Source: Megalodesulfovibrio gigas DSM 1382 = ATCC 19364 (GTDB lineage Bacteria; Desulfobacterota; Desulfovibrionia; Desulfovibrionales; Desulfovibrionaceae). From it: 39,675 nucleotides of DNA. A program made the translations under genes and the position numbers. Where the stretch lies: positions 2,140,709-2,180,383 of the forward strand of contig NC_022444.1 in NCBI RefSeq assembly GCF_000468495.1, given 5' to 3'. The notes beneath the pieces are model-generated. The model was not told where the DNA came from. It made no database searches and was given only the letters and a program-made list of their open reading frames with translations. Of this stretch, positions 24,832-39,675 are shown piece by piece (position 1 is the stretch's first letter; each line of letters starts with the position of its first letter).

Positions 24832-24870
24832 AAAAACCCAAGGGCTTGCGATTTTCACCGCAAGCCCTTG
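24832..24870 (-). terminator. Terminator following the tRNA-Pro fragment
   Basis: A perfect 12-bp stem (CAAGGGCTTGCG / CGCAAGCCCTTG) with an 8-base loop, followed on the minus strand by GGTTTTTGG. It begins 7 bases after the CCA of the tRNA fragment, so it is the natural terminator of that tRNA gene or was carried in with an attP site. Confidence 0.9.
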
Positions 24871-24877
24871 AAATTTC

Positions 24878-24928
24878 TGGTCGGGATGAAAGGATTTGAA
24901 CCTTCGACCCCCTGAACCCCATTCCAGA
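24878..24928 (-). tRNA. 3' fragment of a tRNA-Pro(GGG) gene; probable attachment-site remnant
   Basis: The minus strand reads, ending at 24878, a complete tRNA 3' part: anticodon-loop region T-GGG-G (anticodon GGG with G37, as in tRNA-Pro), a variable loop GGGGTC, T-arm GAAGG-TTCAAAT-CCTTT, 3' acceptor strand CATCCCG, discriminator A, and encoded CCA. The matching 5' half (expected to begin CGGGATG) is absent: upstream bases are AT-rich, and the anticodon stem cannot pair fully (one G-A mismatch). Integration of mobile elements into tRNA 3' ends leaves exactly such a fragment. The element should lie on the side of the missing 5' half, that is, above 24.93 kb. Confidence 0.75.
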
Positions 24929-25069: not shown

Positions 25070-25804
25070 TTAAAATTCACTTAAATCCTTACCAAATGGC
25101 GTAACTACGCCATTCTTAACAAAGTCATCCATTTTATATTTTCCATCTTCGGCTAGACCTTCTTCTGTAAGAGCCTGGTGCCATTTTGCCAAAGCATTTG
25201 TTTGGGATTCATAGTCAGTATTCCAGACTGGCTGCATATATTCTATCCACAACTGGACTTCTCTAACGGATGGGCACCTTTTATTCGAAGTTGACAGTAA
25301 CTCAGCAGTTTTAAGTAAAAAGATGGCTAGCTCTTTATCCACCACCTCATGTGGATTGGACCAATGTTTTCTTCCGTAACATCCAGAATAAAGACTCATT
25401 GATTTTATATTATTCAGGAGCTTTGCGTTTGATCTATTGAACAGCTTTCTGAAATCGGCAAGCTTTCTAGCTCCAGACAAGGCCATTGTCAAAAACATCC
25501 ACATAAAATTCTTATCTGTATGGGACGAAAATTCTCTCCATATGGCCTTTATTGAGTCATCGTCTCCGCCTAAAGCTATGCGGCGTAGTATTGATAACTT
25601 TCCTATCTCTTCTATCGAAAGGATTGCCAAAGCGCATGAAGATGGATATCTTCCTGCATCAAATAATATCCGTGCGTCATTAGCTAGTCTTTTCGCATTG
25701 TCAATTACGCATTCCATTCCTTTTGCTACATCTTCTGGCGATAGCTCTCCACGATACGGACTTAAGCTTAAATCGGTGACTGTTTTATTATTTTTATCAG
25801 GCAT
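25070..25804 (-). CDS. AbiV-family abortive infection protein (HEPN_AbiV)
   Basis: 244 residues from ATG 25804; a TTG-initiated extension to 25831 lacks a better SD. The AbiV pattern is clear: Y-R-G-E-L-S (17-22), G-M-E-C-V-I-D-N-A-K-R-L-A-N-D-A-R-I-L-F-D (29-49), G-R-Y-P-S-S-C-A-L-A-I-L-S-I-E-E-I-G-K (51-69), and R-E-F-S-S-H-T-D-K-N (90-99), which gives an R-x4-H HEPN ribonuclease motif (R90, H95). HEPN proteins are RNA-cleaving effectors of antiphage and toxin systems; lactococcal AbiV blocks late phage protein synthesis. It stands alone, bounded by degenerate repeats. AT-rich codon use differs from the phage genes. Confidence 0.8.
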   Translation of the reverse strand: MPDKNNKTVTDLSLSPYRGELSPEDVAKGMECVIDNAKRLANDARILFDAGRYPSSCALAILSIEEIGKLSILRRIALGGDDDSIKAIWREFSSHTDKNFMWMFLTMALSGARKLADFRKLFNRSNAKLLNNIKSMSLYSGCYGRKHWSNPHEVVDKELAIFLLKTAELLSTSNKRCPSVREVQLWIEYMQPVWNTDYESQTNALAKWHQALTEEGLAEDGKYKMDDFVKNGVVTPFGKDLSEF

Positions 25805-25831
25805 AATCGAAATCCCAACGACATTGAGCAA

Positions 25832-26115
25832 TAAGATTAAGCTGGCAATTCAGTCGCACATGACGATACTCGACCTGAATACTCTTGCAGACAACCAGCT
25901 TCTAACCATTGAAAAGTCATAGAATTATCTCACGAGCTGGGTATGTTTAGCGAAGGGTAATAGATAGGTGTTAAAAGCTCCCGTTTCGTCGAATGGTTGG
26001 CCAAAGTTGGTGTAACGATGCGACCTGAGAACCGCAGCAGCAATTAGGCACTTACACAACCATACTAATGATGGAGATAAGGGTGTAAAGTTATTGATTG
26101 CTGCTACATGAAACG
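25832..26115. other. Intergenic region with degenerate copy of the 25.0-kb repeat
   Basis: Bases about 25962-26013 align with 24995-25045 (shared TAxATAGGTG, then GCTxCCG, GGTTGxCC and GTxGG in the same order and spacing). The two copies flank the AbiV gene in direct orientation. No convincing gene seen. Confidence 0.4.
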
Positions 26116-27555
26116 TCAGTCATTCTCTTCTGGCATGGAGGTTAATTGTTTCAAATAAGTGGCTTCATCAGATTCCAAAAGTGTTCTTGTTGATTCGTTG
26201 TTTAAAATTTGCCAAGAGATATTCTCCTTAGTTACATTGTATTCATTACTCCAGCCGCCTACTAAAGTACCAATTTGTTCTTCCGAGTCTCTTACTAAGC
26301 GCATTGCCAATGTTTGAGGGAATAACAACTCAGCAGCAAATGCATTAGCCCTTTTTTCAAAGAATTTTGGCGTAGCACCTCCTAAAACTTCACAGACATC
26401 TAAAGTACTGTTCCTGTCAACTAAGAGGTGGCAGATTTCATGAGCTAAGGTGAATAATCTCCCATGTGAATGTGAGCATTTGTTTCCTTCTGCTGTATTT
26501 AAAATAATAATAGGACCATGTTTTTTCCCCCAACAGGCTACAGCTTCAAGAGATGTTCCTCCAAAGACATGTTCATGAATTGGAATATTCCATGATTTCA
26601 GTAAGTCGTCAGGGTTAACAGGAGTGTCATGAGTTACTTTTAAATACTCGCGCAATTTTGCTGCAATAGTATAACCCTGCCGATACGGGGCTCTCCCCCA
26701 ATGGATCCAACCTATCTCAGTTGTTGCTGCTTCTAGCAATTTACTATCTATATGCCCAGATGATTTGATTAAATTTAAAATATTTCGTTGCTGCTCTAAT
26801 GTTACATATCCACTGCTTAATCTTGCAGCAGCAAAAATTTCACTTTCAATGAGGATGTGATCTACCCACTCCAGTTCCCAATAATCTTGATTTGAATTAG
26901 AAAGATAATTAAAGTCATATTGATTCATGCTTGCAATCAAGTACAGTTTGTCATTGATAATTTTTCTTGAGTTATCGTCTTTATTTTTCCATGCGTTAAG
27001 AATTGACTTGATATTTCTATCGTTAATATCTTTGATCCATGAAACAATTTCATTACCAACATTCTCAAAAAAGCTATACGCTTTATGCAAATCCACAATA
27101 GTTTGTCTTTGCTCGGCTGAAAAAATTAAATTTTTTCCTGTCCGAAGAATAAATACCGAAGGAATCTCTATCCCAGGAACAGATTCAGAGAGATCATGTC
27201 GTAGAAAAAAAGATTTAAGATTAGATTCCTTTTCAGGCGTGGAGTGGTCTTTAGAAAAAATAAGGTTTCTAATTTTCTGAAATTCACCATTCCAGTATGT
27301 AGGAATAGATTCTGGAGGCACTGCAAAAGGAATATTTTGCTCTGTAAAAATCCATGACCAGTTGCTAGCTAAAAAAGACAGTAAGCCAAGCCAATTCCAC
27401 TTTAAGGGTACAGTATTCGGTTCATGACCAGAAGACCATACAGGTGTGTTGTCAATGGATAAAAGGATTTCACCATAGCCGAATCGTTTATGTCGGCTAC
27501 TGGTTAGTCTGCTCATTTCAATTGAGACTTTATTCTCAATGTTGAATCTAGCCAT
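26116..27555 (-). CDS. ImmA/IrrE-like zinc metallopeptidase (COG2856 type)
   Basis: 479 residues. Zinc site H-E-I-C-H at 372-376 with the downstream helix F-E-K-R-A-N-A-F-A-A-E-L-L-F-P (E400 or E409 as third ligand), the hallmark of ImmA/IrrE peptidases. The first ~270 residues are a large helical region with W-N-W-L-G-L-L-S-F-L-A-S-N-W near residue 55. Residues 275-310 (I-G-W-I-H-W-G-R-A-P-Y-R-Q-G-Y) lead into the peptidase. Family members cleave XRE repressors or other partners to trigger element excision or toxin release. The start overlaps the upstream 137-residue gene by 8 bases (ATGGCTAG), so the pair forms one unit. No HTH was recognised in this protein. Confidence 0.75.
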   Translation of the reverse strand: MARFNIENKVSIEMSRLTSSRHKRFGYGEILLSIDNTPVWSSGHEPNTVPLKWNWLGLLSFLASNWSWIFTEQNIPFAVPPESIPTYWNGEFQKIRNLIFSKDHSTPEKESNLKSFFLRHDLSESVPGIEIPSVFILRTGKNLIFSAEQRQTIVDLHKAYSFFENVGNEIVSWIKDINDRNIKSILNAWKNKDDNSRKIINDKLYLIASMNQYDFNYLSNSNQDYWELEWVDHILIESEIFAAARLSSGYVTLEQQRNILNLIKSSGHIDSKLLEAATTEIGWIHWGRAPYRQGYTIAAKLREYLKVTHDTPVNPDDLLKSWNIPIHEHVFGGTSLEAVACWGKKHGPIIILNTAEGNKCSHSHGRLFTLAHEICHLLVDRNSTLDVCEVLGGATPKFFEKRANAFAAELLFPQTLAMRLVRDSEEQIGTLVGGWSNEYNVTKENISWQILNNESTRTLLESDEATYLKQLTSMPEEND

Positions 27556-29854: not shown

Positions 29855-30742
29855 CTATTTCAACCCTTCAAGCACCTGCTCCAACTCATCTCGCAACGTC
29901 TCAAGCTGAGTACGGAGCTCCTCCCTTTGCTCTGGCTGGATGCTGCCTATATCTGGACCTTTCAATTTCTGGAGCTGAGTCGAGGCGGTTTTTACGGCCC
30001 TCACGCTGCTGCCAAAGTTAAACCCTCGTTCCTCGTCCATCTCGGCAGCTTCCTTCTTTTTCTTCTTGTACGCTGCCTGGGTCATGCCACTGTCTTTTAG
30101 ATGGTCCCATTTCTTGGCTTTGGCTTTCGGTCCTTTGGCTTTGGCTACTTCGACCAACACCCACTGGGAAACATCTTTGCGCTTTCGAGCCTCATCAAGA
30201 ATTTCTTCGGGAATCTTATTGATAGACAATATCTCGCTTACACTGGACATGGATTTGCCAATCATCGTTCCAAGGTGATCCAGCCCGTATTTTCCTTCTT
30301 CTCTGAGTTTGGCTAAACCCTCAGCCAATTCAACCGGATTCAGGTTCTCACGCTGGACGTTCTCAATGAGAGCGATTTCTTGATGCTTTCCCTCAACAAA
30401 CATTCCTGGAATAGTTCTGAAACGCTGAAACAGTACTTGCAGCTCTGGGTCGTCAGGGTTCTCTTTCGCCTTCCGCAGGATGCTCTTGATGGCCTTGACC
30501 CTCCGCTCTCCAGCTACAACAATGAGCTTTCCATCATCCTCTCTTTGACGAAAAACGATGGGCTGCATGAGCCCATATGCTTTGATAGACTCTTTGAGGG
30601 CTTCCAGGGCTTGCTTGTCGAAAAACTTCCTGGGCTGCTCCTTATCTTCAAGAATATCCCCAACGGGAAGGTCATAAATCTTTCCGTCTACGTATTTTGC
30701 TTCGTCGGAAACTTTAGCGTTTACATCAAATTCGTCAGCCAT
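29855..30742 (-). CDS. parB: ParB/RepB/Spo0J-family protein (orphan, no ParA)
   Basis: 295 residues; AAGGAGGGGGG lies just before ATG 30742. ParB N-terminal CTPase/nuclease-like domain: Q-P-R-K-F-F (36-41), L-M-Q-P-I-V-F-R, V-V-A-G-E-R-R (75-81), then I-E-N-V-Q-R-E-N-L-N-P-V-E-L-A (126-140). An HTH follows around 152-175 (L-G-T-M-I-G-K-S-M-S-S-V-S-E-I-L). The C-terminus (about 255-295) is a glutamate/leucine coiled coil that may dimerise. No ParA is encoded nearby. A palindrome lies 68 bases upstream of the start (30810-30823). It may act in segregation of the element or as a CTP-dependent regulator. Confidence 0.85.
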   Translation of the reverse strand: MADEFDVNAKVSDEAKYVDGKIYDLPVGDILEDKEQPRKFFDKQALEALKESIKAYGLMQPIVFRQREDDGKLIVVAGERRVKAIKSILRKAKENPDDPELQVLFQRFRTIPGMFVEGKHQEIALIENVQRENLNPVELAEGLAKLREEGKYGLDHLGTMIGKSMSSVSEILSINKIPEEILDEARKRKDVSQWVLVEVAKAKGPKAKAKKWDHLKDSGMTQAAYKKKKKEAAEMDEERGFNFGSSVRAVKTASTQLQKLKGPDIGSIQPEQREELRTQLETLRDELEQVLEGLK

Positions 30743-31334: not shown

Positions 31335-31658
31335 TCACGAAGATATTATCCTGATGATGCCGTACAGGCGGCGAATCGATTCACTGTCTGCCCTTATTAC
31401 GTATTCTTGAACGAACTGCCTCAAATCGTCGCTATGTGCCTGGAAATCCTCAATGTCAAACAATTCAACAAGAGAAACCTCCAAAGCACTACCAATCTTC
31501 TCCAGAATCGCAATAGTCGGATTGGCTTTTCCTCGTTCAACATCGCCAAGGTATTGAACGGAAAGGCCCGACTTCTCCGCCAGTTTTTCTTGAGTCATAT
31601 TTTTGGCTTTCCTCAAGAATCTCAAATGATCACCAAAAGCGGTCTGCAAATCGTTCAT
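31335..31658 (-). CDS. XRE-family transcriptional regulator
   Basis: 107 residues from ATG 31658 (GGAG 7 bases upstream; a second ATG directly before it at 31661 is also possible). HTH_3 domain: F-G-D-H-L-R-F-L-R-K-A-K-N-M-T-Q-E-K-L-A-E-K-S-G-L-S-V-Q-Y-L-G-D-V-E-R-G-K-A-N-P-T (about 9-50), complete with the 'E-R-G' helix end. The C-terminal third (F-V-Q-E-Y-V-I-R-A-D-S-E-S-I-R-R-L-Y-G) probably dimerises. It is divergent from the flagellin gene; two direct repeats in the shared gap are likely operators. It may control itself and flagellin, or serve as the element's repressor. Confidence 0.85.
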   Translation of the reverse strand: MNDLQTAFGDHLRFLRKAKNMTQEKLAEKSGLSVQYLGDVERGKANPTIAILEKIGSALEVSLVELFDIEDFQAHSDDLRQFVQEYVIRADSESIRRLYGIIRIISS

Positions 31659-31705
31659 CATGCCTCTCCTTGAAATAGCAAGGATAGACGATGAAACGCA
31701 CTGTC

Positions 31706-31846: not shown

Positions 31847-33328
31847 ATGTCTCTGGTAATCAATCACAACCTGATGGCAATGAATGCCAGTCGGAACCTC
31901 GGCACCCATTATGATTCACTGAGCACATCCGTTCGACGTTTATCCTCGGGGTTGCGAGTGGATTCAGCGGCAGATGATGCAGCTGGGCTGGCTATCCGTG
32001 AAATGATGCGCGCCGATATTTCCACCATAAACCAAGGAATCCGAAACGCCAACGACGCTATATCAATGATTCAGGTGGCAGACGGAGCACTGCAGGTCAT
32101 CGACGAAAAGCTGATCCGTATGAAAGAGTTGGCAGAACAAGCAGCAACAGGAACCTATACTTCCGATCAAAGATTGATAATCAACTCTGAGTTTCAAGCA
32201 ATGGCATTGGAGATTCAAAGGATTTCAAAGTCAACAGACTTCAATGGGGTTAAACTTTTGGATGGTAGTCTAAGTGGCACTCATGATGGAACGTCGTTGA
32301 CTTCTTATGGGGCTGCAAAAATCCACTTCGGAACAGGTAATAATAGTTCTGAAGATTATTATTACGTTAACATTGCCGACGCAGGATTAGTTAATTTGGG
32401 CTTAGCGACAGAGCCACTGAATGTTCCTTATGTTAACAATGATATTGCAACCCAAGGAGTATGGTTCTTTATAAATAGTGGAGTGGAACTTGTTGGTGTT
32501 ATTCCCGTTGGAGCTCAGAATGTTTCAATTGAAATTAACAGCTACATTAATGACAACGACATTCAAGTATTCACAAGAGACGGGAAGCATTTAGCTGGAA
32601 CAAATCTTGATGATTATGTTTGGACAACAAGTTGGTTCACAACGCCTCCAAACAACATTACAAGAGGAAATGTGAATCAAACCCTCATAATTGAAGATAA
32701 CGGATTTTTTAGCAATGCCAAATATGACGACTCAAACTTAATAGATGGAAAGACTGTTAACTATGACTTTGCAAGACCCAACGTAGTTTCGAATTATCGC
32801 AACATGGAAATAAGATATAGCGGAGATTCAGATACAAACAACAATGGGCACACCGATGACGATGTGCCTGTCTCAAGTTCATATGAAAAACTAGAGATAA
32901 ATAATGTCAAAGAAGACCTTATAATCATTTCTGTTGGTGGTGGAGGGTTTGATGTTCGAGGAACTTGGGATGTCTTAGAAAATAATATTTCTGACTCATT
33001 TCTTCTTTCTGGAGGTGTAAAAGTCGAATCAATCGCAAGTCAAGAATTAGCACAAAGGATGCTAGGAAAAATTGATGCGGCCATTGTAAAAAAGGATGGC
33101 ATCCGTGCAAACCTCGGCGCACTGCAAAATCGTCTACAAAATACTGTCTCTAACCTTTCCATCCAGGCCGAAAACCTCCAAGCATCAGAATCCCGTATCT
33201 CCGACGTCGATGTTGCAACAGAGATGACCGAATTTGTGCGACACCAGGTACTAACACAATCGGCAGTAGCTATGCTTGCACAAGCGAATAGTCTGCCCAG
33301 AATGGCATTGCAATTAATTACAGGGTAA
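31847..33328 (+). CDS. Flagellin
   Basis: 493 residues, with GGCGGGGAT upstream of ATG 31847. The N-terminal D0/D1 part (1 to about 140) is canonical: S-L-V-I-N-H-N-L-M-A-M-N-A, L-S-S-G-L-R-V-D-S-A-A-D-D-A-A-G-L-A-I, A-N-D-A-I-S-M-I-Q-V-A-D-G-A-L, T-D-F-N-G-V-K-L-L-D-G. The C-terminal D1/D0 part (about 405-493) is also canonical: I-R-A-N-L-G-A-L-Q-N-R-L, E-S-R-I-S-D-V-D-V-A-T-E-M, and the ending A-Q-A-N-S-L-P-R-M-A-L-Q-L-I-T-G. The middle ~250 residues are an asparagine/aspartate-rich surface region (pre-peptidase-like V-E-L-V-G-V-I-P-V-G-A-Q-N-V-S-I). Full length and intact. A flagellin on an integrated AT-rich element is unusual; it may alter the filament surface of the host. Confidence 0.93.
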   Translation: MSLVINHNLMAMNASRNLGTHYDSLSTSVRRLSSGLRVDSAADDAAGLAIREMMRADISTINQGIRNANDAISMIQVADGALQVIDEKLIRMKELAEQAATGTYTSDQRLIINSEFQAMALEIQRISKSTDFNGVKLLDGSLSGTHDGTSLTSYGAAKIHFGTGNNSSEDYYYVNIADAGLVNLGLATEPLNVPYVNNDIATQGVWFFINSGVELVGVIPVGAQNVSIEINSYINDNDIQVFTRDGKHLAGTNLDDYVWTTSWFTTPPNNITRGNVNQTLIIEDNGFFSNAKYDDSNLIDGKTVNYDFARPNVVSNYRNMEIRYSGDSDTNNNGHTDDDVPVSSSYEKLEINNVKEDLIIISVGGGGFDVRGTWDVLENNISDSFLLSGGVKVESIASQELAQRMLGKIDAAIVKKDGIRANLGALQNRLQNTVSNLSIQAENLQASESRISDVDVATEMTEFVRHQVLTQSAVAMLAQANSLPRMALQLITG

Positions 33329-34021: not shown

Positions 34022-34438
34022 ATGGCGAAAAAAATATCACCCGAGAACAAGAAGCAGGTGATGGAGTCGAAGTACGATCCGATCAAGCTTCGGCAGTTGT
34101 GTGAAGCAGGTGTCACCGCCATGGAGGCAAAGCAGGCCCTGGGCTTGAGTTCCATGCAGAGCTTGCGTCAGCACCTGATGAGACTTTCCGTCGAATCACA
34201 GAACCTCATGACCCTACCCGGATTGTATGAGAGAAGCTCAACTCGGGCTAGATTGACGAAACAAGGGATCAAACTTTCCCTCTCCAAGCTCAAGGCTTCC
34301 GGGATCGAGTACCCCGAGAACACCGAATTTCGCATGGAGTTCGATGAGGAGCGAAATCAAATTCTCCTGACCTGGATGGGCATAGGCACCGGCCAAGTCG
34401 ACCAATACGAACCCTCAGACATTTCGAATGTAAGGTAA
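34022..34438 (+). CDS. Small protein with HTH-like N-terminus and AbrB-like C-terminus
   Basis: 138 residues; GGAGGTATCGACA precedes ATG 34022. Residues about 25-60 (L-R-Q-L-C-E-A-G-V-T-A-M-E-A-K-Q-A-L-G-L-S-S-M-Q-S-L-R-Q-H-L) look like a helix-turn-helix. The last ~40 (G-I-K-L-S-L-S-K-L-K-A-S-G-I-E-Y-P-E-N-T-E-F-R-M-E-F-D-E-E-R-N-Q-I-L-L-T-W) resemble a swapped-hairpin AbrB/SpoVT half. The gene at 35930 has the same two-part layout. Probably DNA-binding; family not recognised. Single-gene unit closed by a terminator. Confidence 0.6.
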   Translation: MAKKISPENKKQVMESKYDPIKLRQLCEAGVTAMEAKQALGLSSMQSLRQHLMRLSVESQNLMTLPGLYERSSTRARLTKQGIKLSLSKLKASGIEYPENTEFRMEFDEERNQILLTWMGIGTGQVDQYEPSDISNVR

Positions 34439-35929: not shown

Positions 35930-36325
35930 ATGAATGACCAGGGAACTAAAAAGAGAAAGGTTTCTGAGGAGGAGATCAACAATTTTGCACATGCACTTGT
36001 TGATAAATTCAAAGACAAGAATGATAATGACGAAATTTATCATTCTGAAATTTCGGGACAATTCAATGTCTCTTCCTCTGTGGTCGATAAAATTTACATC
36101 AGGGCAATCGCACTTGGCCTTCCGAAGTTGATTTTAAAACAGAAAGAGAAGAAAAACGACTCAACAGAAAATCCTTTTATCAACGATCGCATGAGCATAA
36201 TGATCGGAAAATCAGTTATCAACAGACTCAATGAACAAATCGAAAATGATAAATTCGAGGTCAAAGACGAATTCAAAGTTGAACTTGATGACGACAAGAT
36301 AGTTCTGACTAGAATTAAAAATTAG
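35930..36325 (+). CDS. Small protein with HTH-like region and AbrB-like C-terminus
   Basis: 131 residues; AAGGAG lies 7 bases upstream. Lysine/glutamate-rich N-terminus, an HTH-like part (E-I-S-G-Q-F-N-V-S-S-S-V-V-D-K-I-Y-I-R-A-I-A-L-G, about 42-65), a charged linker, and a C-terminus I-G-K-S-V-I-N-R-L-N-E-Q ... F-E-V-K-D-E-F-K-V-E-L-D-D-D-K-I-V-L-T-R-I matching the 'G-x-V...L...Y-x-x-G-D-x-V-x-V-x-x-x-D-x-x-I-x-L' rhythm of AbrB/SpoVT folds. Same architecture as the 34022 product, so the two may be distant paralogues. Strong own promoter and terminator. Confidence 0.6.
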   Translation: MNDQGTKKRKVSEEEINNFAHALVDKFKDKNDNDEIYHSEISGQFNVSSSVVDKIYIRAIALGLPKLILKQKEKKNDSTENPFINDRMSIMIGKSVINRLNEQIENDKFEVKDEFKVELDDDKIVLTRIKN

Positions 36326-36511: not shown

Positions 36512-36898
36512 ATGTCGAACGATGAATCCTGGAACGTGATCTACACCTACACCCGTGCCCAGGCAATCGCAGATGGAGTTCTGGTCGATGTCACAACGCA
36601 GGCCAGGCAGTCCGGTTTTAAGGTGCCCGTGGCCGTGACTGAACGGCTGTTCCACCAGTACATCATCCCGCCTCCTGGGCTCGAAGGAGAGGGCCAGAGC
36701 ATCGAAGGCAGACTCCACGATCTTTTTTTCCAAAGCATCATGACCGCCCAAAAGGCTCGTGGCAAGGACCGGGTGGCGTTCGAGGTGCTGTTCTTGATGC
36801 GTCCCGGAGAGCATGAGACCGTGCACTGCATCCTTCACATAGGACCCGGAGATGCAGGCGAACCCGTAGTGACAATCATGCTGCCAGGGGATGAATGA
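36512..36898 (+). CDS. DUF6573 family protein (intact copy)
   Basis: 128 residues; AGGATG lies upstream of ATG 36512. The family signature is plain: V-I-Y-T-Y-T-R-A-Q-A-I-A-D-G-V-L-V-D-V (about 9-27), G-F-K-V-P-V-A-V-T, E-G-Q-S-I-E-G-R-L-H-D-L, then V-A-F-E-V-L-F-L-M. DUF6573 proteins are common on plasmids and integrative elements and have no known activity. GC content is higher than the flanks, suggesting a different origin. A decayed paralogue lies at 30929-31317. The stop overlaps the start of the next frame (ATGAATGA). Confidence 0.85.
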   Translation: MSNDESWNVIYTYTRAQAIADGVLVDVTTQARQSGFKVPVAVTERLFHQYIIPPPGLEGEGQSIEGRLHDLFFQSIMTAQKARGKDRVAFEVLFLMRPGEHETVHCILHIGPGDAGEPVVTIMLPGDE

Positions 36899-37131: not shown

Positions 37132-37159
37132 TTGCGCTTTTTTCCGGTCATGGTATAAT
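37132..37159 (+). promoter_or_regulatory. Promoter of the helicase gene
   Basis: -35 TTGCGC (37132-37137), 16-base spacer, perfect -10 TATAAT (37154-37159). It gives a leader of about 90 bases before the ATG at 37259. Confidence 0.7.
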
Positions 37160-37202
37160 TTAAAAATTGATCTTTGAAAATCAAGACAGCTTGTACGAAT
37201 CG

Positions 37203-37227
37203 GCTGCTGATCAAGCAGCACGTGCTG
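37203..37227 (+). promoter_or_regulatory. Overlapping palindromes in the helicase leader
   Basis: GCTGCT-GATCA-AGCAGC (37203-37219) and the perfect palindrome CAGCACGTGCTG (37216-37227) share CAGC, so their hairpins exclude each other. They sit between the promoter and the SD (AGGAG), suggesting an attenuator or a binding site for a regulator. Confidence 0.5.
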
Positions 37228-37258
37228 GTGCTCCCGGTGTTTATTATAGGAGCACTAA

Positions 37259-39067
37259 ATGAGCTTATTATCCCATGAGTTTTTCAATTTACACCAGGAA
37301 GATGAATTTCAAAACATTGAGGGCAGTGACGAAGACAAAACGATGACTGATAAATTCAATGGAAGGTTGGAGACACCGTTAAGCAATGTGAAAGTTGAAC
37401 ACAATCCCTTCCGCGATCAATCTCTGCAATATAAACCCATGCCGCAGGCCCCGGTCTACTCAATGCAGCCTCCTGTTGTTTCCACTGATACAAAAAATAC
37501 ATTAACCACAACAACCGAATCCAACAATCCATTCGAAAATTACAATTCAAAGACAACTAATTCCACCGCAAAACCTGAAACGACGAGTCCTTCAACAACG
37601 AATCCGTTTCCCTTCTATAGTCAAACTCCCGCCCACGGAAAAGCTTCCACCAAAGATGTTTCGGATCACGAATTATTGATCCCTTTGGTGACGGATATTG
37701 AATTCTTTGCTGATGATTTGGGGGACGTTTATTCAAAAGTAAATGATGTTCCACACGTCATCGAATCATCGTCCAGCTTGCTTCGACAGATTTTGGAAGG
37801 CCGCTTTCTCGACATCCATAACCGGCTTCCAAGGCGTAGTGATGTAAATAATGTGATTGAGTGTCTTGTATTTGAAGCAAAAAGAAGTGGACGTACACGT
37901 AAAGTCTTCAATCGGTTTGCAGTACTTGACAATGACAATGCTAAAATTATTGCGATTGATCTTGCAAATTCAAACGGCGAAGCCATTATCATCGACAGAA
38001 ATGATTGGACGGTAACGTCCGACCATAAAATCGATTTTGTTCGCCATCCCCACATGCGCGAGTTGGAACACCCTGACCCCAGCGGGTCATTGTTGGAACT
38101 TTCGGAACTTCTCGGCGTTTCCGACGCAGAATCATCGTTATTGTTCGCATGGCTTGCCTGTGCCATGAGAACCGACATGGCGCGGCCGATCCTTATGTTA
38201 CACGGCTCACCGGGGAGTGGAAAATCGACTCGCGCCAAAATGTTGCGGGATTTGCTTGATCCATCAGTTGTCTTCGATATGTTTCCTAAAAAGGCTGATG
38301 AATTACCGTTACTGATGCATTCGAAAGCAATTCCACTCTTTGACAATGTCGGAAACCATCTGTCAGACGATCAATCTAACACATTATGCATGGCTTGCAC
38401 TGGCGGTTCTCTTAGTAAGCGCAAGTTGTACTCGAATCGTGATATGATAACGCTCCCTTTTCAACGCGCTGTCATCATGACTGCTGTAAACAATCCGATT
38501 ACTGCTTCTGATCTGATCGATAGATCACTCATCATCCGTTTCGAAAGAATAAAAATACGTGCAACAGACGAGTCTTTGACGGCAAGGTATCTTTCACGGA
38601 AATCTCACATCTTAGGCGGCTTGCTCAATATAATACCAAAGGCGCTCGAAATTGAAAAGACTTTGAAGATTAACAATCTGCCTCGCTTGGCTCACTTTGC
38701 AAAATTCGGATATGCTGTCAGCGAAGCACTTGCAAATGGTTTCACTGGTGATCGGTTCTTGGCAGAACTTCGCTTGAGTCAACAGGGTTCGTTATTGGAA
38801 AGCGTTGCCGATGATCCTTTGCCTGGATTGATTTATGATTATGTCTCTCAGGTTCAAGTCGACCATGTTCCAATGAAAGTTTTTTTTGAAGACTTAATGG
38901 CGTACGCGAAGGTTTGCTCAATTGATCCGAAAAAGCTCCCCGCCGCTCCAAATTCCATGAGTAGGAAGATCAATTCAATGACACACATCTTCGAAGAATT
39001 TGGATGGCTCGTTTCTATCGATAGAGGACTTGGAAACGTCTCGGTGGTAACATTTAACAAAGCTTAA
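37259..39067 (+). CDS. AAA+ ATPase, SF3-helicase-like replication protein
   Basis: 602 residues; AGGAG lies 6 bases upstream. Residues 1 to about 130 are a disordered S/T/N/P-rich tail (T-T-T-E-S-N-N-P-F; T-S-P-S-T-T-N-P-F). About 130-290 form a lead-in domain (I-P-L-V-T-D-I-E-F-F-A-D-D-L-G). The ATPase core follows: Walker A H-G-S-P-G-S-G-K-S-T-R-A-K (about 313-325), Walker B A-I-P-L-F-D-N-V (about 355-362), sensor 1 M-T-A-V-N-N-P (about 405-411), and D-R-S-L-I-I-R-F-E-R-I (about 420-430). A winged-helix-like end (S-R-K-I-N-S-M-T-H-I-F-E-E-F-G-W) follows. This is the plan of D5/P4-type superfamily 3 replicative helicases without a primase domain. The iteron cluster directly downstream supports an initiator-helicase role. 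Confidence 0.75.
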   Translation: MSLLSHEFFNLHQEDEFQNIEGSDEDKTMTDKFNGRLETPLSNVKVEHNPFRDQSLQYKPMPQAPVYSMQPPVVSTDTKNTLTTTTESNNPFENYNSKTTNSTAKPETTSPSTTNPFPFYSQTPAHGKASTKDVSDHELLIPLVTDIEFFADDLGDVYSKVNDVPHVIESSSSLLRQILEGRFLDIHNRLPRRSDVNNVIECLVFEAKRSGRTRKVFNRFAVLDNDNAKIIAIDLANSNGEAIIIDRNDWTVTSDHKIDFVRHPHMRELEHPDPSGSLLELSELLGVSDAESSLLFAWLACAMRTDMARPILMLHGSPGSGKSTRAKMLRDLLDPSVVFDMFPKKADELPLLMHSKAIPLFDNVGNHLSDDQSNTLCMACTGGSLSKRKLYSNRDMITLPFQRAVIMTAVNNPITASDLIDRSLIIRFERIKIRATDESLTARYLSRKSHILGGLLNIIPKALEIEKTLKINNLPRLAHFAKFGYAVSEALANGFTGDRFLAELRLSQQGSLLESVADDPLPGLIYDYVSQVQVDHVPMKVFFEDLMAYAKVCSIDPKKLPAAPNSMSRKINSMTHIFEEFGWLVSIDRGLGNVSVVTFNKA

Positions 39068-39675
39068 GTCTGACAAGTCGGACAGCACCAGCACGTTTTT
39101 TGGTTCCAGGCTCGTCCTTGACGCCCCCAGGGAGGTATTTGGGGATATTTGGGAGATACCAGGGAGGTATTTAAAAATATCTCCCTCACATAAATTATTG
39201 AAAATATTAAAAAAATTTGATTTTAGGGAGATATGGGAGATATTTTCGCAAAAAACTATTTTCAATTTTTTGATTTCCTTTTCCCCAAAGGAAAATATTA
39301 TTTACATCTATGTATTTACATTGACTTCAGTATTTATATTGATATTAATTTTACCTTCATATAAATTGTCATTAATATATATTCAATTCATACTTCAACT
39401 TAATATTTATATTCATTCGAATCATTGTATATAATATGTGTATCAATTATGATCCACTGATAGTACCTGTAACTGCTACTTCAATTTAAAATTTCTATTA
39501 AGCTTAATAACTATATTATAATCATATTATCATTGTATAATAACATTTAATATAACCAATTCAAAGTATATTATACCAATGTTAGATTGATAATATAATT
39601 AACTGTAACTAATAAGCATATCATAAGCATTGATTACAATTAATATTAATATACATTTGAATTATAAATTAAATA
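39068..39675. other. Putative replication origin region: iterons then AT-rich DNA
   Basis: No gene is supported. The first ~180 bases hold the GGGAGRTAT repeats listed next; from about 39245 to the window end the DNA is almost entirely A and T, with ATATT/AATAT repeats, suited to easy unwinding. A hydrophobic 78-codon frame at 39198-39434 is a by-product of the AT bias. Confidence 0.55.
39130..39243. repeat. Iteron-like repeats (GGGAGRTAT)
   Basis: Direct copies begin at 39130 (GGGAGGTAT), 39141 (GGGGATATT, degenerate), 39151 (GGGAGATAC), 39162 (GGGAGGTAT), 39226 and 39235 (both GGGAGATAT), with one inverted copy at 39177-39185 (ATATCTCCC). The first four are 10-11 bases apart, so they face the same side of the helix. 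This spacing and the adjacent helicase gene fit initiator-binding iterons. Confidence 0.65.

Follow-up and report, generated by a model that had tools for sequence, protein, structure and literature searches.

The replication modules closest to the one described here are those of phage-inducible chromosomal islands (PICIs), SCCmec elements and phage P4. In PICIs, the origin is found 3' of rep and invariably comprises two sets of iterons around an A/T-rich region (PMC6092414). In the SaPIs, the C-terminal domain of Rep reads the origin located directly downstream of its own gene, and the SCCmec helicase Cch2 uses its C-terminal domain to bind direct repeats downstream of its gene; Cch has DUF927, while Cch2 has a D5_N/primase-C-terminal domain (PMC7581432). 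A standing question is how helicases of the SF3/D5 type, carried by mobile elements, achieve self-loading at their origins. Here, we analyzed a 39,675-nucleotide stretch of the Megalodesulfovibrio gigas chromosome (hereafter, the window; C2:2140709-2180383, within a two-contig 3.8-Mb genome), whose last part very probably is a P4/PICI-type rep-ori (replication module) belonging to an integrative element of ~20 kb that occupies tRNA-Pro(GGG). A previous sequence-only reading of this segment had interpreted it as a replication module of an integrated element, and our results support this interpretation.

The GC content is ~65% in the first ~24 kb of the window, which belong to a prophage, and ~40% in the remainder. 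The rep gene and its origin are part of an element of ~20.1 kb, which is bounded by attL and by tRNA-Pro(GGG) itself (Table 1) and has two tyrosine recombinases at its right end; the att repeats and the recombinases support the proposed integration. A third att copy is present at C2:2105777-2105854, on the far side of the prophage, and the prophage and the element form a tandem at a single tRNA-Pro att site. The genome G006, a relative from the same family, has a sister element that likewise abuts tRNA-Pro(GGG). The adjoining ~60-kb prophage (window 1-24869, reaching the third att copy) is a possible helper. At its left end (window 25070-27555), the element carries two genes that are probably defence cargo, one for an AbiV-type HEPN protein (E 2e-42) and one for an IrrE-like, weakly CapP-like metallopeptidase. 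The DUF6573 gene adjoining the helicase has similar ORFs, as read from ORF lists, in four sister elements (L018, L022, L081 and L086). The small ORF at 34022 has no family match but has relatives in sister elements, and the ORF that it resembles at L004 5112-5495 sits downstream of the origin. A flagellin gene was noticed in or beside at least four elements (window 31847-33328; L022 1542-3611; L091 35-337 and L095 7320-8642, both on the reverse strand); the window copy is a Pfam match, and the other three were read from ORF translations.

Table 1. Features of the element and its replication segment (window coordinates unless stated otherwise).
Feature	Position	Strand	Remarks
attL, copy of the tRNA-Pro(GGG) 3' end	24870..24924	-	55-bp match (96%) from BLAST and a genome search
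ParB-like gene	29855..30742	-	ParB_N, E 3e-16
Cro/C1-type HTH regulator	31335..31661	-	HTH_3, E 4e-17
Small ORF	34022..34438	+	resembles ORFs at 35930 and L004 5112-5495; compared by eye
Small ORF, apparently same kind as the 34022 ORF	35930..36325	+	
DUF6573 gene	36512..36898	+	DUF6573, E 8e-25
Candidate -10 of rep, TATAAT	37154..37159	+	perfect hexamer, by sequence
Structured mRNA leader of rep (predicted)	37161..37258	+	fold z -2.9
rep, predicted SF3/D5-like AAA+ initiator-helicase	37259..39067	+	602 aa
Left arm, outer block of four iterons	39130..39170	+	39130, 39141 (degenerate), 39151, 39162; 10-11 bp spacing
Left arm, inverted single iteron	39177..39185	-	ATATCTCCC on + strand
Left arm, inner pair	39226..39243	+	GGGAGATAT twice, both exact, at 9 bp spacing
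A/T-rich spacer, presumed unwinding element	39255..39675	.	runs on to ~39769 (extended coordinates)
attR, tRNA-Pro, right element end	C2:2185636-2185756 (outside the window)		tRNA at L004 9667-9743

An origin laid out like those of PICIs and P4, a prophage in tandem at the same att site and an AbiV-type defence gene would all suit a true phage satellite (PICI or P4-like), whose induction and packaging would depend on a helper (perhaps the adjacent ~60-kb prophage). Like a PICI, the element has an integrase and a specific att site, and a satellite nature would be compatible with the rep-ori interpretation. However, we consider it rather unlikely: the ORFs that were scanned with Pfam, NCBIfam or PHROGs included no recognisable terminase, capsid-remodelling or AlpA/Stl-type gene, the element carries ParB-like and flagellin genes instead, and relatives of its helicase reside on plasmids. 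Moreover, the element differs from PICIs in lacking a primase adjacent to or fused with rep, as well as any recognised packaging or interference gene. Given that neither a primase nor a packaging gene was found, we do not classify it as a PICI by gene content.

The rep product does have the features of an AAA+ helicase that had been read from the sequence, since the 602-aa ORF contains a Walker A (HGSPGSGKS), a Walker-B-like (IPLFDN) and an arginine-finger (DLIDR) motif, all aligned across the family. The families suggested for it (D5_N, Pox_D5 and AAA) were not recovered with Pfam: AAA matches stayed below threshold, and D5_N and Pox_D5, like DUF927 and primase_Cterm, remained unmatched. In NCBIfam, TIGR01613 (P4-family primase C-terminal) reached E 0.006 and 15.5 bits vs. 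a cut-off of 108.7, and no significant hit came from searching the PDB by sequence. Because the curated sequence families provided no match above cut-off, Rep was classified by its fold and layout. According to an AlphaFold2 model, which was built with window and viral homologs and is mostly confident from residue ~131, a disordered region (~1-130) is followed by a core (~131-519) and a winged helix (~520-602). The best PDB match of the model is the SaPI5 primase-helicase PriRep1 (7ola_C; Z 17.8, rmsd 6.5, 377 residues aligned), and further matches are vaccinia D5/mpox E5 (Z ~15) and SCCmec Cch (Z 13.6). Thus, the D5 relationship appears as a D5/SaPI-Rep fold, and the model is closest to replicative SF3/D5 initiator-helicases, which argues against a non-replicative AAA+ family. 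The anticipated C-terminal winged helix was predicted both in the whole protein and when the last 103 residues were modelled alone (mean pLDDT 84.5); among its matches is 1ka8, the origin-binding domain of phage P4, at a Z of 6.4 that other winged helices reach as well. Taken together, the AAA+ motifs and the predicted fold suggest that Rep is an SF3/D5-type self-loading initiator-helicase. A self-loading helicase is also what Cch and Cch2 provide, although their DUF927 and D5_N domains are unmatched in Rep by Pfam; Cch2, moreover, works with the primase-polymerase CCPol-MP and at only three iterons. The disordered N-terminal tail (window 37259-37648) holds three NPF tripeptides, and the homologs in L018 and L091 hold two and three, respectively; as many occurred in no more than 1 of 20,000 shuffles. 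These repeats are a candidate recruitment motif for a host replication protein.

Directly downstream of rep lies an arm of iterons followed by A/T-rich DNA. The four repeats at 10-11 bp spacing (39130/39141/39151/39162) were confirmed, while the reported 'at least six' copies of GGGAGRTAT are reached only with near matches: five sites in 37259-39675 are exact (39130, 39162, 39226 and 39235 on the plus strand, 39177 on the minus strand), and 39141 and 39151 are degenerate. The description of the adjacent DNA as 'nearly pure' A/T was overstated, as 39265-39675 is 81% A/T. From the start of the inverted single iteron to that of the inner pair, the distance is 49 bp. A mirror-image right arm is located at 39788-39901 (extended coordinates; C2:2180496-2180609), beyond the window end; it was missed by the sequence-only reading because the window stops at a 1-base assembly gap (N at 39676). 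The arms, each 131 bp long, are imperfect inverted copies of each other (score 93.5 vs. ≤15.5 in block shuffles) on either side of a spacer of 515 bp, which is 82% A/T and crosses the assembly N. As mirror arms flank the spacer on both sides, we disfavour the explanation that it is mere low-complexity DNA. Genome-wide (3.8 Mb), GGGAGRTAT has 34 hits, nine of which fall within 772 bp at the origin and another nine in a second partial copy of the locus. A phage BLAST search with the origin DNA gave no match.

The locus therefore shows the phased direct repeats beside an A/T-rich unwinding element that define iteron plasmid origins, as well as the arrangement of a PICI/P4-type rep-ori, with the origin directly 3' of rep and two iteron sets around A/T-rich DNA. 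Iteron plasmid origins also feature DnaA boxes and an initiator that is not a helicase, whereas Rep is itself predicted to be one. The latter layout, along with SaPI5 PriRep1 as the nearest fold, is what it shares with the PICIs, the comparison with S. aureus SaPI origins resting on the descriptions in the cited papers. In contrast to the E. coli PICI EcCICFT073, whose arms are divergent (outward), those of the window face inward.

A near-identical, inverted ~8-kb duplicate of the locus occurs at C2:3528346-3536329 (L005 3347-11330). It contains the 3' part of the helicase gene, the origin, the recombinases, tRNA-Pro and the host genes next to it. A 1.5-kb N run marks the end of the other copy, and a transposase-like ORF is found at the matching end of L005; the duplicate may be either a real duplication or an assembly artefact. 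Two further observations concern the DNA to the right of the origin. A tyrosine recombinase of only 185 aa, in which the usual N-terminal domain is missing, is encoded at L004 5788-6345, and its homologs in L019, L021, L022, L081-L088 and L097 occupy the interval from the origin to the full-length integrase. Here and in about four sister elements (L018, L019, L091 and L099), the origin and the next gene are separated by a tiny hydrophobic ORF of 33-45 aa with a lysine/arginine tail and a strong Shine-Dalgarno sequence (here L004 4876-4977, window-equivalent 40167-40268), which looks like a type I toxin or a small membrane peptide.

Plasmid iterons often double as control sites, and the element encodes both a ParB-like protein and an HTH regulator. 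The repeats might accordingly serve as an operator for autoregulation or silencing, or as a partition (centromere) site for ParB, with the helicase doing another job, e.g., in defence or recombination. We find this very improbable, since the repeats are situated downstream of rep, away from its promoter, their spacing fits the P4 replication origin, and inverted arms lie behind the helicase in many unrelated contexts, including plasmids, where no ParB-like neighbour was noticed; furthermore, the helicase matches no defence family. Hence, we retain the replication origin as the preferred interpretation of the repeats.

As for rep expression, the claim of a strong promoter was not confirmed: the -10 hexamer is perfect, but TTGCGC, 16 bp upstream, matches TTGACA at only 3/6 positions, and the promoter scan listed none at 37154, owing to this weak -35. 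The structured leader, on the other hand, was corroborated. RNA 37161-37275 folds at -32.9 kcal/mol (z -2.9; 1/200 shuffles equally stable), and in the predicted fold the Shine-Dalgarno sequence GGAG is buried in a 9-bp stem. A leader hairpin that hides the ribosome-binding site would restrain translation of rep and therefore keep the Rep level low. Compared by eye, the rep 3' UTR (39068-39105; AGCACCAGCACG, then a T run) shows a 12-base complementarity with leader positions 37218-37235 (CGTGCTGGTGCT), and long-range pairing or antisense control is possible.

Homologs of the helicase are present in 28 of the 297 genomes of the order, as well as in viral contigs and on plasmids, at 24-30% identity where measured. 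They were found by profile searches, whereas a direct search of genome contigs with the single protein revealed no relative. The recurrence of repeats beside homologous helicases, on which the replication interpretation had been made to depend, was observed: inverted or clustered iterons follow the gene in ten genomes (G006, G011, G010, G118, G184, G132, G220, G213, G197 and G055) and on plasmids of Ca. Chlorohelix and Streptomyces, with sequences that differ from those in the window. The iteron types include GGTGGCGAT, GGTGAAGGC, GGTGGAGAT, GGACAGATA, GTGACAGGC and TGTGACGCT, among others; 12 TGTGACGCT-type sites lie behind the helicase gene of the Ca. Chlorohelix plasmid and 15 GGGACGCAC-type sites behind that of Streptomyces pSTS2, and pH6Ac has six 11-bp tandem repeats upstream of its helicase gene. 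G132, G184 and G220 each possess two helicase genes a few kb apart, and where arrays are found behind both, they differ. Clear arms were absent downstream of several homologs (L020, L022 with an IS insertion, L028, viral L032, L034 and L042). In a Mantel test of iteron similarity against protein domains, the correlation was weak (rho 0.08-0.15), and the winged helix performed no better than the AAA core.

While the iterons vary, their spacing recurs. The window's element, G118, G184 and the Chlorohelix plasmid share the order of an outer block, an inverted single iteron 15-22 bp on and, after 43-49 bp, a pair, which is followed by an A/T spacer and the mirror image. We scored this spacing with any 8-mer as template (maximum 48 per arm, 96 per two arms), and the window's element, G184 and the Chlorohelix plasmid reached two-arm scores of 90-92/96, compared with a null mean of 63.8 and maximum of 73 (n=244). 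The ranges were read off nine loci that are also among those scored, so that the independent cases are P4, EcCICFT073 and a few others. The annotated P4 ori, which was not used in deriving the rule, scored 48/48 for a single arm vs. ≤38 in shuffles, and EcCICFT073 scored 46/48 for one arm (null maximum 38) and 85/96 for two outward-turned arms; the outer distance was widened by 1 bp (to 15-23) after the latter result. Sliding the 43-49 gap lowered the mean arm score from 42.3 to 36.5-40.1, although some iteron-dense loci also score at neighbouring gaps, and the distance between the outer block and the inverted single is less sharply defined when the test uses eight sites. P4-family helicases do not all obey the rule, given that 30 TIGR01613 primases of the same class reached at best 40/48, mostly at shuffle level.

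The arm of the window's element has the triplet, the 15-23 bp distance, the inverted single, the 43-49 bp gap and the pair of the P4 ori. In P4, six type-1 repeats follow in the same order and spacing (a triplet, an inverted single 22 bp on and a pair 43 bp on), beside A/T-rich DNA, but the repeat itself (GGTGAACA) is unlike the iterons of the window. P4 alpha is of the same broad SF3/D5 helicase type, as the weak TIGR01613 similarity of Rep indicates, and has a winged-helix origin-binding domain in the PDB (1ka8); however, it is an annotated primase of 777 aa, whereas Rep, at 602 aa, has no primase. P4 also has a second region, crr, ~4.7 kb off, with a spacing score of only 36/48, while here both arms mirror each other around a single spacer. 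Given these likenesses, we tentatively propose, as a possibility that still calls for caution, that one origin-arm architecture (three sites, an inverted one and a pair, set at fixed distances; ~6 per arm and 12 per origin) is common to the Desulfovibrionaceae elements, the E. coli PICI, P4 and the Chloroflexota plasmid, with the spacing conserved rather than the iteron sequence; each arm would seat one Rep hexamer, one winged helix per site, and two arms would load the two helicases that a bidirectional origin needs.

The absence of a primase, also put forward in the sequence-only reading, was confirmed insofar as no primase-like gene was recognised by Pfam families among the element's ORFs scanned and Prim-Pol PF09250 had no match in the genome. 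Since this is so, priming by host enzymes is the likeliest route. Relatives carry a fused or adjacent Prim-Pol: Streptomyces pSTS2 and Methanothrix pH6Ac, which resemble the locus in having a homologous helicase (25-27% identity) and iteron arrays nearby, differ from it in encoding Prim-Pol next door (pSTS2) or as a fusion (pH6Ac). This difference, together with a truncated second rep copy elsewhere in the genome, could mean that the module is a relic, whose origin is intact but whose replication was lost along with the primase. We regard this as improbable, because the rep ORF is complete and all sites are kept in both arms. Furthermore, no primase-like ORF was noticed beside rep in the ORF lists of several sister elements either, which makes the primase-less state look stable.

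If the module is functional, as we favour, the recombinases would excise the element as a circle, and the C-terminal winged helix of Rep would bind both iteron arms, mirror images of each other, just behind rep. Rep hexamers on both arms would then melt the ~0.5-kb A/T spacer; such assembly and melting are expected by analogy with the SaPI/SCC helicases (PMC7581432) and PICI origins (PMC6092414). We infer one hexamer per arm, which six to seven sites per arm would suit. Bidirectional, autonomous replication would subsequently start with host enzymes, and as the element encodes no primase, the primer would come from the host DnaG, possibly recruited by Rep, or from RNA polymerase. Helper dependence would be expected if the element were a satellite.

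Our findings place the locus among the already known Rep-ori systems of P4/PICI type. To the extent that this could be checked, the novelty lies in a primase-less helicase family without a Pfam model and in a spacing common to different iterons. A spacing that stays constant amid changing repeats suggests a geometric constraint on helicase loading (~six sites per arm, two arms), and the spacing rule offers a sequence-independent way to find the origins of integrative elements. If the shared-architecture reading is true, its primase-less members would show a helicase that starts replication with host priming only. Moreover, our results point to sulfate reducers as hosts of a mobile-element family that has no recognisable primase and often carries flagellin genes.
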